41,067 bases of DNA from contig JALHRC010000011.1 of NCBI GenBank assembly GCA_022841645.1, forward strand, positions 1 to 41,067, written 5' to 3'. Made by a program: the position numbers and the translations under genes. Positions within the stretch are counted from its first letter, which is position 1. Each line of letters starts with the position of its first letter. The DNA is from Minisyncoccota bacterium. Its GTDB lineage: Bacteria; Patescibacteriota; Minisyncoccia; Phycocordibacterales; UBA918. The notes under the pieces were generated by a model. It was not told the DNA's origin and made no database searches. It saw nothing but the letters and a program-made list of their open reading frames with translations. Of this stretch, positions 26,588 through 29,193 are shown piece by piece.

Positions 26588-27577
26588 CTACACCGGCTGT
26601 AGCCTTTCCGAAAGTTTGTACGCGGTCCCGTGCCGTAGCAACCCAAGGTACGACTGTACTACCGCTGTAGTACCATCGGCCTCGGCAACTTTCTTAAACA
26701 TCCGTTTTTTAGTGATCGTTCGCAGCACGCGGTGGTGCGGAAAATGCACCCATCCCAGAAAATCCACACCCGCCGCCAACGTACCAATAGAAACTTTAGC
26801 GGGATGTAACGCGAGCCTAAGTCGGCCCTGCAGAAACGTCTGCATCCGTGGCACGAGTGACAGCAACCAGTCACGATCACGTGACAATACGACAAAGTCA
26901 TCGGCATATCGTATGTAATACCTCGCCTTTATCTCTCGCTTTACAAACTGATCAAATTGGTTTAAGTATACGTTCACAAACAGTTGCGAGGTGAGGTTTC
27001 CCAGCGGCAATCCCTTTCCTGTTTCAGTGCTTGAAAAACTTTCTAGCACACACCCACACAACCCGCGAATGTCGGTATCGACAATAGCACTGGCTAAAAT
27101 TTGCTCAAGCACCGTGTGATCAATCGAAGCAAAGCACTTGCGAATATCACCCTTCAGTACCCAGCAGGTTTTTGTGTTGTTTTGGCTCACCCTGTTGCCG
27201 AAACTGGAAAACCGGCGTAACGCTCGGTGCGTTCCCTTCCCTAGCCGGCACGAGTATGAATCGACAATAAATATGCGATCAAAAAACGGATACAACTGAC
27301 GATAGATGGCGTGATGGAGGAGTCGATCACGCACGCAAGCTTTATGAATGTTCCGCGGCTTGGGATCAGAAATGTTAAAGGCTTCGTAGCAGCCATGCTG
27401 GTAGGTCTTGTTTTTCAAATCATGATGAAGCGACAAGATGTTATCCATGAGATCATATTGAAAAACTTGAACGTCTGTCCGTTTTCGCTTTCCGCGCACA
27501 AATTCTTCCCACGCCTGAAGTAGATTTTCAACCGAGATGATATGATCGTAGGTAATGTTTGAAGATGTAAAAAACAC
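26588..27577 (-). CDS. DGR-type reverse transcriptase
   Basis: 329 residues from the GTG at 27577; the frame stays open upstream to 27682, but that part is low-complexity and non-homologous, so the start is uncertain. It copies the template RNA into mutagenised cDNA for transfer into the variable repeat. RT motifs: DPKPRNIHKACVRDRLLHHA (71-90), the D144 region (LKGDIRKCF), the DGR-type motif GLPLGNLTSQ (189-198, in place of the group II intron QG pattern) and the catalytic YADD (224-227). No maturase or endonuclease domain follows, as in DGR RTs. It diverges from avd and lies 39 bp downstream of rsmI's start side. No SD. Confidence 0.92.
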   Translation of the reverse strand: MFFTSSNITYDHIISVENLLQAWEEFVRGKRKRTDVQVFQYDLMDNILSLHHDLKNKTYQHGCYEAFNISDPKPRNIHKACVRDRLLHHAIYRQLYPFFDRIFIVDSYSCRLGKGTHRALRRFSSFGNRVSQNNTKTCWVLKGDIRKCFASIDHTVLEQILASAIVDTDIRGLCGCVLESFSSTETGKGLPLGNLTSQLFVNVYLNQFDQFVKREIKARYYIRYADDFVVLSRDRDWLLSLVPRMQTFLQGRLRLALHPAKVSIGTLAAGVDFLGWVHFPHHRVLRTITKKRMFKKVAEADGTTAVVQSYLGLLRHGTAYKLSERLQPV

Positions 27578-27583
27578 ACCCAA

Positions 27584-27611
27584 GTCTACCCCCCCCCCGC
27601 AACAATTCAAC
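27584..27611 (-). promoter_or_regulatory. Putative RT promoter with a G10 spacer
   Basis: On the minus strand TTGAAT and TAGACT are separated by 16 nt, of which ten are the homopolymer G run (C10 at 27589-27598 on the plus strand). The -10 would end about 6 nt before the GTG start. The hexamers are only moderate matches, so this is tentative. Confidence 0.35.
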
Positions 27612-27631
27612 AACCTAAGCTGATTCCAGTC

Positions 27632-27970
27632 GTGTTGAAGTTGAAAGACGTGTACGGGGTGTGGCAGGAATACCTGACACACTTTCCTAAACAGAATAGA
27701 TACACTTTAGGCAACAAAACTGATGAGGTATTTTTGTTAGCAATTGAGTATTGTTTTCTGGCGAGCTACGCCCACAAGGATACAAAACTTATTCACCTGG
27801 AACGGTGTATTTCACGAGTAGACCTACTCAAGCTACTTCTTCAACTCGCGTGGGAAATCCGCGCGCTTGATGCCAAGAAATACCGTGTGCTTGGTGAGCA
27901 ACTCCAAGAAGTGGGGCGAATGCTTGGAGGCTGGAAAAAAGGTTTGGAACCAAAAAACTCCCCGTCATAA
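27632..27970 (+). CDS. avd: DGR accessory variability determinant (Avd-like four-helix protein)
   Basis: 112 residues from GTG 27632 (TTG 27635 is an alternative). Avd forms a small helical pentamer that binds the RT and template RNA and is needed for cDNA synthesis. The pattern FPKQNRYTLGNK (about 18-29), DLLKLLLQLAWEIRALD (about 69-85) and the C-terminal EVGRMLGGWKKG are the typical bacterial Avd/four-helix-bundle features. It is encoded opposite to the RT, the template repeat and the target gene; in the best-known DGRs avd lies on the same strand as these. Its stop falls inside the template-RNA terminator. No SD and no clear promoter. Confidence 0.85.
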   Translation: MLKLKDVYGVWQEYLTHFPKQNRYTLGNKTDEVFLLAIEYCFLASYAHKDTKLIHLERCISRVDLLKLLLQLAWEIRALDAKKYRVLGEQLQEVGRMLGGWKKGLEPKNSPS

Positions 27971-27978
27971 ACGAGGAG
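27952..27978 (-). terminator. Intrinsic terminator of the DGR template RNA
   Basis: On the minus strand CTCCTCG (27978-27972) pairs with CGGGGAG (27964-27958), with one G-U pair, and is followed directly by six T. It lies about 15 nt past the template repeat and overlaps the avd stop codon on the other strand. Confidence 0.7.
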
Positions 27979-28159
27979 AAAACCGTGTGTTGCTCACGAC
28001 CACCCGATGACGGTTGTCGGCGTTCCAGACGTTGTCGTTCTCGAAGCGGTTGACGTTGACCTTGAGCTGGCCATCGTTCACGTTGACGTTGGCGACGAAC
28101 AGAAGCGAAATGTGAAGCGAATCATCTTTTTCACCAAAGTGTGATGGTATCCAGCGCAC
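27958..28159 (-). ncRNA. Predicted free-standing DGR template RNA
   Basis: Promoter TTGGAA-17-TACAAT (28194-28166) and the terminator at 27952-27978 bound a transcript of about 200 nt holding the whole template repeat (27993-28102), a leader of about 57 nt and a trailer of about 35 nt. The sense matches the target gene's coding strand, as required. The 3' part is antisense to the end of avd. Confidence 0.6.
27993..28102 (-). repeat. DGR template repeat (TR)
   Basis: 110 bp, aligned without gaps to 28434-28543. The two differ at 14 positions, and every one is an A on the minus (sense) strand of this copy, which identifies it as the template. Read in the target frame it is rich in AAC codons: eight codons (seven AAC, one AAG) differ from the variable copy. 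It lies between avd and its own promoter. Confidence 0.95.
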
Positions 28160-28165
28160 TTTTGC

Positions 28166-28194
28166 ATTGTATGTGAGACCTCAAAGTCTTCCAA
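28166..28194 (-). promoter_or_regulatory. Promoter of the template RNA
   Basis: On the minus strand TTGGAA (28194-28189) and TACAAT (28171-28166) have a 17-bp spacer. The predicted start is near 28159. The rest of 28103-28349 shows no gene. Confidence 0.6.
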
Positions 28195-28349
28195 TTCACT
28201 CCACCAACAAACTATTTTTTTTAAGCCATACAGCCACCCGCGCTTTTGTTAGTCGTAACCAGCAAAATTCTGAAGCAACTGTCGGCGCTGTCAGACGTTC
28301 GCAGCCGTAACCGTGAACTAGTATCTGCAGTGCGTAGAGTATATATAAA

Positions 28350-28386
28350 AACAGAACCTTAGACACCCACGTGGAGTGTCTAAGGT
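28350..28386 (-). terminator. Intrinsic terminator of the DGR target gene
   Basis: Arms 28356-28366 and 28376-28386 form an 11-bp perfect stem, with a 9-nt loop that itself contains the palindrome CCACGTGG. On the minus strand it is followed by a T-rich run (TTCTGTTTTTA). It lies about 45 bp after the target stop codon. Confidence 0.7.
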
Positions 28387-28398
28387 CCTAAGCGTCCA

Positions 28399-28412
28399 AG
28401 CGCCGCAGCGCT
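28399..28412 (-). repeat. Small hairpin downstream of the variable repeat
   Basis: AGCGC/GCGCT, 5-bp stem with a 4-nt loop, 21 nt beyond the 3' end of the variable repeat. Several DGRs carry a hairpin at this place that promotes retrohoming; here the stem is shorter and further away, so the role is a guess. Confidence 0.4.
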
Positions 28413-28429
28413 CAGGGTCAGATGGTCTG

Positions 28430-29041
28430 TTACCTCACGACCACCCGATGACGGCGGTCGGCGTTCCAGACGCCGTCGCACTCGAAGCGGAGGACGAGGA
28501 CCCTGAGCTGGCCATCGAACACGTTGACGATGGCGACGAACAGTTCCCCGCCCGCCTCAAACAGAAAGAGGGTTGCGTAGCCATCCTGCCGCAGCTGTTC
28601 ACGATGTTCCCTGCAGAACTCGACGATCTGCCCCTGCGTGAGACAGAGCGAGCGCAGGTCATCGGGCAGCGACATGAACAGCTGCGGGAAGTTGCCGTTC
28701 TTCGTCTGCTCATAGACGTCCACCGGTGCCTCAGGAGTGTCCACGCCTGGCTGGTCAGTACCCCACCCAGCAAAGTCTGGATCGATATATCCGAAGACGT
28801 CGCCGGACTGCGTAATCGTCGCCGTGCCGCTCGTGGCGGCGAGGGTGACCGACTGCAGGTGACGCAGGTGGGTAGTGTGCACGCCAACTGCACCCTGTAT
28901 CACGAACGGATTACGCCGTTCGAGGAAGGCCTGAAGATGGTCCCCGGTGAGAGAGCCGTCAGCAATCTGCCGGAAGAGGTCCTTGAGTTGAGCAGCCGCC
29001 ACGCCGGACGACCCCTTCACGACAACCTTCTGAGCTGCCAT
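28430..29041 (-). CDS. DGR target protein with variable C-terminus
   Basis: 203 residues from the ATG at 29041, chosen because AAGGAG lies 7 nt upstream; an earlier in-frame start at 29074 has no such support. The N-terminus (KGSSGVAAAQLKDLFRQIAD, then SLTGDHLQAFLE) resembles a helical domain I recall from many short CPR proteins. The C-terminal half should be a C-type-lectin-like fold, as in other DGR targets, with the variable repeat as residues 167-202. No signal peptide or membrane helix is visible, so its location and ligand are open. It has a strong extended -10 promoter, a long structured 5' UTR and its own terminator. Confidence 0.88.
   Translation of the reverse strand: MAAQKVVVKGSSGVAAAQLKDLFRQIADGSLTGDHLQAFLERRNPFVIQGAVGVHTTHLRHLQSVTLAATSGTATITQSGDVFGYIDPDFAGWGTDQPGVDTPEAPVDVYEQTKNGNFPQLFMSLPDDLRSLCLTQGQIVEFCREHREQLRQDGYATLFLFEAGGELFVAIVNVFDGQLRVLVLRFECDGVWNADRRHRVVVR
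28434..28543 (-). repeat. DGR variable repeat (VR)
   Basis: 110 bp at the 3' end of the target gene. Against the TR the substituted codons read N to I, F, L, L, C, G and R, and K to R. The 3' end (on the sense strand) of about 20 bp is identical to the TR, as expected for the initiation of mutagenic homing site. Confidence 0.95.
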
Positions 29042-29048
29042 GATCTTA

Positions 29049-29054
29049 CTCCTT
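29049..29054 (-). promoter_or_regulatory. Shine-Dalgarno of the DGR target gene
   Basis: AAGGAG on the minus strand, 7 nt from the ATG. It is one of only two clear SDs in the window. Confidence 0.7.
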
Positions 29055-29082
29055 GCGCTAGCGGGCCTAACCACAGACGTGG

Positions 29083-29136
29083 GTTTGCCATAGCAGAAAA
29101 ATGCTTAAGTTTAAGCTGCTTTCTGCTATGGCAAAC
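29083..29136 (-). repeat. Long inverted repeat in the target-gene 5' UTR
   Basis: Arms 29083-29099 and 29120-29136 are exact 17-bp reverse complements. The 20-nt loop contains a second 6-bp hairpin (GCTTAA/TTAAGC), so the RNA would fold into one long interrupted stem between promoter and start codon. There is no T run, so a classical terminator is unlikely. Confidence 0.8.
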
Positions 29137-29164
29137 TACAGGTTTTAGAAAGAACTACTCTACT

Positions 29165-29193
29165 ACTATAGCATAGTTCTAACCAAAAAGCAA
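29165..29193 (-). promoter_or_regulatory. Strong extended -10 promoter of the DGR target gene
   Basis: TTGCTT (29193-29188), 17-bp spacer, TATAGT (29170-29165), with TATGC before the -10. The predicted start near 29158 gives a 5' UTR of about 117 nt. Confidence 0.7.

Follow-up and report, generated by a model that had tools for sequence, protein, structure and literature searches.

Among described diversity-generating retroelements (DGRs), the closest counterpart of the element analysed here is that of Bordetella phage BPP-1 (mtd, avd, TR, brt), whose target gene ends in a variable repeat (VR) that receives adenine-directed mutations from a template repeat (TR). In BPP-1, avd, the TR, and brt are co-oriented, and a structured spacer lies 3′ of the TR (PMC12875486). 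A second point of reference is DGR clade 2, reported to be restricted to Patescibacteria (Roux et al. 2021, PMC8144416); the same study described slower turnover for cellular DGRs (clades 2 and 5) and asked whether stronger control of reverse transcriptase (RT) activity explains it. Our subject is a DGR carried on a stretch of 41,067 nt (positions 1 to 41,067 of contig JALHRC010000011.1, assembly GCA_022841645.1; the whole stretch is hereafter the window) from a Patescibacteria genome of 1.1 Mb that is 98% complete, and it was compared with 132 distinct Patescibacteria relatives, giving 133 DGR loci with that of the window. We propose, at a probability of roughly 0.77, that DGRs of this Patescibacteria type are gated by slipped-strand phase variation of avd, which would act as a stochastic on/off switch on the mutator.

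The window element shares with the BPP-1 DGR the adenine-directed mutagenesis of the target 3′ end, a homologous RT (its family profile matched BPP-1 bRT, 8ub7_A, at E 1e-61), and an Avd of the same fold. Unlike in BPP-1, avd lies antisense between the TR and the RT gene, a terminator follows the TR, a structured domain stands 5′ rather than 3′ of the TR, and avd contains a repeat tract. The resemblance to clade 2 extends to the host group, the cellular location, and targets without recognizable domains, and loci of the window type very likely belong to that clade, judging by host and RT similarity. The DGR itself is an unexceptional representative of a Patescibacteria group that is already known, and the occurrence of DGRs in Patescibacteria is not new. 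The main text of PMC8144416 makes no mention of Avd, frameshifts, or repeats. No report of an avd repeat switch or of a 5′ TR-RNA domain was found in the open-licence literature, and the survey of Paul et al. 2017 may hold a prior mention. The parts of the element on which the argument depends are as follows.

26588..27583, minus strand: DGR reverse transcriptase (RVT_1, E 2.5e-21; phrog_1423, a phage RT family, E 1e-100), with its start probably at TTG 27583 or GTG 27577
27555..27970, plus strand: avd from its upstream ATG (bAvd Pfam, E 6e-14), with the conserved core at about 27599-27970 in another frame
27589..27598, plus strand: C10 simple repeat between the avd ATG and the avd core, from a frame check
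27993..28102, minus strand: TR, from repeat alignment
28434..28543, minus strand: VR, forming the 3′ end of the target gene, from repeat alignment
28430..29041, minus strand: DGR target gene, an open reading frame of 203 aa from ATG 29041, with a variable C-terminal domain and an N-terminal part common to other proteins

A simple repeat in the 5′ coding end of avd

The element runs in the order target with VR, RNA domain, TR, terminator, antisense avd, repeat tract, and RT. A first-pass annotation of the window had called this DGR complete; all parts are indeed present, but avd is shifted off its ATG frame by the C10 tract in the assembly, and the annotation had missed that avd occupies the plus strand while the RT, TR, and target are all on the opposite one. 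This divergent arrangement of avd and RT, with 5′ ends close or overlapping, recurs in 132 of the 133 loci (the window counted), and in the 113 loci with a detected TR/VR pair the RT strand also carries the TR, usually 480–650 nt upstream of the RT core and just beyond the avd 3′ end. The sole locus with avd on the RT strand (L108) has an avd–TR block that looks inverted relative to the RT; it carries no repeat, and its avd is in frame.

Tract lengths and frame states were taken from assembled consensus sequences, and the counts of loci with the avd core in frame (ON) or out of frame (OFF) consider ATG starts only. The single ATG upstream of the avd core in the window, ATG 27555, is put out of frame by C10, and reading from it yields a 22-aa stub that ends at TGA 27621-27623. 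A tract length of 2 mod 3 (8 or 11 C) would bring avd into frame and carry the reading on to the avd stop at 27968. With avd shifted off its ATG in this way, the assembled consensus probably represents the element in a switched-off state.

Among the relatives, excluding the window, 120 of 132 hold a simple repeat at the same spot: C7 to C14 in 100 loci, CT/TC in 15, GA in one, and GTCA, CAGC, ACGA, and CAAT in one each. Repeats with a unit of three were found in none of these 120. C or G tracts of at least 8 numbered 99 within the 12.1 kb of the avd 5′ zone, compared with 4 in the other 1,162 kb of those loci, an enrichment of about 2,400-fold. A comparison set of 70 distinct DGR loci from viral contigs with a recognizable avd separated along the orientation of that gene: avd lay on the RT strand in 60, of which none had a repeat at avd, and was divergent in the remaining 10, of which three did (C11, C8, and GA19). 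As separate observations, one relative (L138) has an assembly N gap exactly at the tract spot and another (L059) has N directly at the tract, which could arise from tract heterogeneity in the sample; the window genome also holds about 11 further C or G tracts of at least 8 (e.g., in G000, at C14:5082-5159 and C24:51-63), of which two are of 13 and one pair flanks an N gap.

The sequence of the tract turned over repeatedly while its position was retained. On the RT tree (FastTree), in which many branches are weak, the kind of repeat changed at least 16 times, and the well-supported branches alone, counted group by group, forced eight changes between poly-C and the rest. Close relatives can differ in tract length or repeat unit: a C12 (L158) and a TC12 (L164) locus share 94% and 88% avd identity, respectively, with a C8 locus (L197), and ACGA9 (L131) and CAAT7 (L180) occur in avd genes that are 86% identical. 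Differences in tract length between close relatives are thus present at the between-species level. This pattern of a fixed position and a changing sequence is what would be expected if selection keeps length instability itself.

Frame states and the proposed switch

The frame relations around the tract point to a coding repeat. In all 118 testable loci an ATG opens into the repeat from no more than 60 nt away, against 69.6 expected from dinucleotide shuffles. Among loci whose ATGs all fall in one frame, 20 were ON and 87 were OFF (52 and 35 in the two OFF frames). Poly-C loci were ON in 17 of 90 cases, whereas 29.4 would be expected from randomly dealt lengths, a bias toward OFF. Read from the most upstream ATG, 23 of the 25 ON loci encode 126–149 aa, and OFF loci 9–81 aa. 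Where the sequence was readable and no tract, not even a residual one, was present, avd was in frame in 10 of 10 loci; an apparent off-frame exception (L170) was rejected from this group, as it carries a C6 tract.

We propose that slipped-strand mispairing at replication would alter the length of the simple repeat in the avd 5′ coding end and, with it, place the avd core either in frame (ON, approximately 126–149 aa, with the repeat in a disordered tail) or out of frame (OFF, which yields a short stub), with translation presumed to begin at the upstream ATG and the length changes presumed to arise within populations. In the rebuilt BPP-1 system, avd nonsense mutations lower repair to approximately 1e-9 (PMC12875486). 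Avd is required for complementary DNA synthesis and retrohoming in the studied DGR, and an out-of-frame avd should therefore silence the element. A cell in the OFF state would then retain its current VR, slippage would restore avd in a few descendants, and these rare ON cells would re-randomize the VR from the TR.

Structural modelling of an ON-form Avd (L096, C13) bears on whether such a tail could be tolerated. Residues 1–19, including the repeat-encoded prolines, were disordered in the model, and a four-helix bundle with a predicted local distance difference test score (pLDDT) above 90 followed; the model matched the Avd of BPP-1 (4dwl, TMt 0.91) as well as the Avd chains in a DGR ribonucleoprotein (8ub7). 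As the repeat falls in the disordered tail outside the bundle, changes in its length should, according to the model, be harmless to the Avd fold.

Several observations count against the switching of avd, and three rival explanations were considered. The first is strand bias: C was on the avd strand in 100 of 100 poly-C loci and CT/TC outnumbered GA by 15 to 1, which hints that the tract may also function in the RT leader. On this basis the repeat could belong to the leader or promoter of the divergent RT, as a poly-G or AG-rich ribosome-binding or spacing sequence, and affect avd only incidentally. Seen from the RT strand, the tract is poly-G or AG in 115 of 120 loci, and in the window the poly-G ends 5 nt ahead of TTG 27583; however, the distance from the repeat to the nearest RT ATG varies from 1 to 52 nt, the GTCA, CAGC, ACGA, CAAT, and GA repeats do not resemble a Shine-Dalgarno sequence when read on that strand, and without exception the repeat falls within an avd frame that is open. 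We consider a leader function in place of avd switching unlikely, and the tract may serve the RT leader in addition to switching avd.

The second observation concerns the start codon, as GTG 27632, located 3′ of the window tract, could start a slightly truncated Avd, and an ATG or GTG is present 3′ of the tract in 33 of 120 loci. Were the Avd start generally 3′ of the tract, the frame of the upstream ATG would be irrelevant. The other 87 of the 120 loci have neither an ATG nor a GTG there, and in tract-free loci the upstream ATG shares the frame of avd. The stretch between the tract and the core also appears to be read as avd, because in-frame stops occur there in 0 of 120 loci although 38.7 would be expected. 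A general downstream start consequently seems very improbable.

Third, VR divergence was equal in ON and OFF loci (fraction of TR adenines changed, 0.56 vs 0.56), a result that neither supports nor excludes switching, since equality would be expected if the two states interchange often and likewise if the state is irrelevant. Fourth, the differences in tract length are seen between assemblies rather than inside one population, and assembled homopolymer lengths can be wrong. Homopolymers can also cause slippage. Programmed slippage of RNA polymerase or the ribosome on the tract would keep up a supply of in-frame Avd at all times, so that activity would be low and constitutive instead of heritably switched, and it would accommodate the finding that most assembled loci are OFF and yet have diverged VRs. 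The shift that would be needed is not constant, however, with frames 0, 1, and 2 all being common, and 20 loci carry di- or tetranucleotide repeats instead of poly-C, a replacement consistent with replication slippage but with no known recoding signal; we therefore hold constitutive recoding to be improbable as well.

Phase variation of avd also has a well-described parallel. Known contingency loci switch surface structures, methylases, and similar functions. In Neisseria, Haemophilus, and Campylobacter (for a review, see, e.g., PMC11868660), short poly-C/G, dinucleotide, and tetranucleotide tracts, with units of 1, 2, or 4, set the ON or OFF frame of a gene from within its 5′ coding part. The avd tract is likewise situated at the 5′ coding end, with a unit length that is no multiple of three, and it shifts the downstream frame; unlike in the known loci, the gene switched would belong to a targeted mutator. 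If the proposal is true, contingency loci and DGRs are joined in one circuit, in which a randomly mutable locus switches a targeted mutator. The natural control of DGR activity has been called an exciting frontier (PMC12875486), and the avd repeat would, if it acts in this way, provide a specific and sequence-readable answer to how that activity is controlled. Tract length would then predict ON and OFF cells, and VR diversity should track ON alleles.

Adenine-directed variation and the TR-RNA

The TR and VR are direct repeats of 110 nt on the minus strand that align without gaps at 87% identity. All 14 mismatches among the 110 positions fall on the 27 adenines of the TR (hypergeometric P 1.1e-10), with six changes from A to T, five from A to G, and three from A to C. 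Recomputation reproduced the repeat coordinates, the 14 adenine-only differences, and the 27 adenines given by the first-pass annotation, and a recount agreed with its statement that eight codons are altered (seven AAC and one AAG). Its statement that a target gene ends in the VR, next to an RT and an Avd-like protein, also stands, given the 203-aa reading frame and the RVT_1 and bAvd profile matches. The annotation had described a DGR with strict adenine-directed variation, which holds, and had inferred that it has been active, which holds for the past: the adenine-limited divergence in the sequence indicates that the window VR was rewritten at some past time. An adenine-only TR/VR pair was detected in 113 of the 133 loci, and a search of the 1.1-Mb host genome found no second TR, VR, or RT.

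Two further features, both on the RT strand, flank the TR.

28098..28231, minus strand: structured RNA domain directly 5′ of the TR, with helices P1-P3 (covariance model R1, 79.2 bits, E 7e-16)
27958..27978, minus strand: intrinsic terminator at the TR-RNA 3′ end, overlapping the avd stop codon (terminator scan)

The RNA domain spans approximately 130 nt and comprises three helices, in which 98.1% of pair cells across 42 sequences were standard pairs (at most 53% when the partners were slid). Compensatory changes were present in 18 of 20 pairs, and every shuffle fell short of these values. When the window TR-RNA was folded as a single sequence, it did not outperform its shuffled versions (z -0.5), the structure being visible by covariation alone, and the Rfam matches obtained for the TR region, all sub-threshold, were judged to be chance. 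The covariance model gave one match each in 80 of 96 searched sources (Patescibacteria-type loci, of which some are viral contigs), none in 68 other viral-contig DGR loci, and matches in 26 of 99 related genomes, with one or two copies apiece. A hairpin and T-run equivalent to the window terminator lie 3′ of the TR in most relatives. Because the 5′ domain is conserved and a terminator stands 3′ of the TR, the TR-RNA is probably transcribed separately and carries its binding domain 5′ of the TR. The domain is a candidate binding site for the RT–Avd complex and also provides a specific model for finding Patescibacteria TRs. Together, the proposed avd repeat switch and the RNA domain 5′ of the TR set this Patescibacteria DGR group apart as a distinct variant. 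It appears likely that DGR hypermutation across Patescibacteria is under stochastic, heritable phase variation of the avd tract, in a lineage whose TR-RNA has its own form with a conserved 5′ domain. Lone copies of the RNA domain were seen at L313 (G074 C7) and L315 (G030 C14), each followed by a TR-like stretch and a terminator, with no RT or avd within the fetched region; these solitary copies may be either relics or templates acting in trans.

Target protein and minor features

The C-terminal domain of the target was confidently modelled, and fold comparison gave a best VIA Z of 4.3, with weak matches that included a C-type lectin. Foldseek returned no match at E <0.1 for the target model, and no relatives of the target were found in IMG/VR. 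A role for the target as a binding surface, as the first-pass annotation had imagined for a small cell, would be plausible. The first approximately 50 residues of the target (MAAQKVVVKGSS...LKDLFRQI; window 28900-29041) are common to proteins with other C-terminal parts (L044, L046, and L047), which suggests at the sequence level that the N-terminal segment is modular. With respect to the partner protein, NCBIfam DivGenRetAVD matched the window Avd at E 1.7e-18, under the family cut-off.

One more feature lies downstream of the target.

28352..28390, minus strand: hairpin followed by a T-run, 3′ of the VR and the target stop (terminator scan), either the target terminator or a DGR-type hairpin

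Just upstream of the target gene, at 29083-29136, the window carries a near-perfect inverted repeat of 26 bp with a 2-nt gap.

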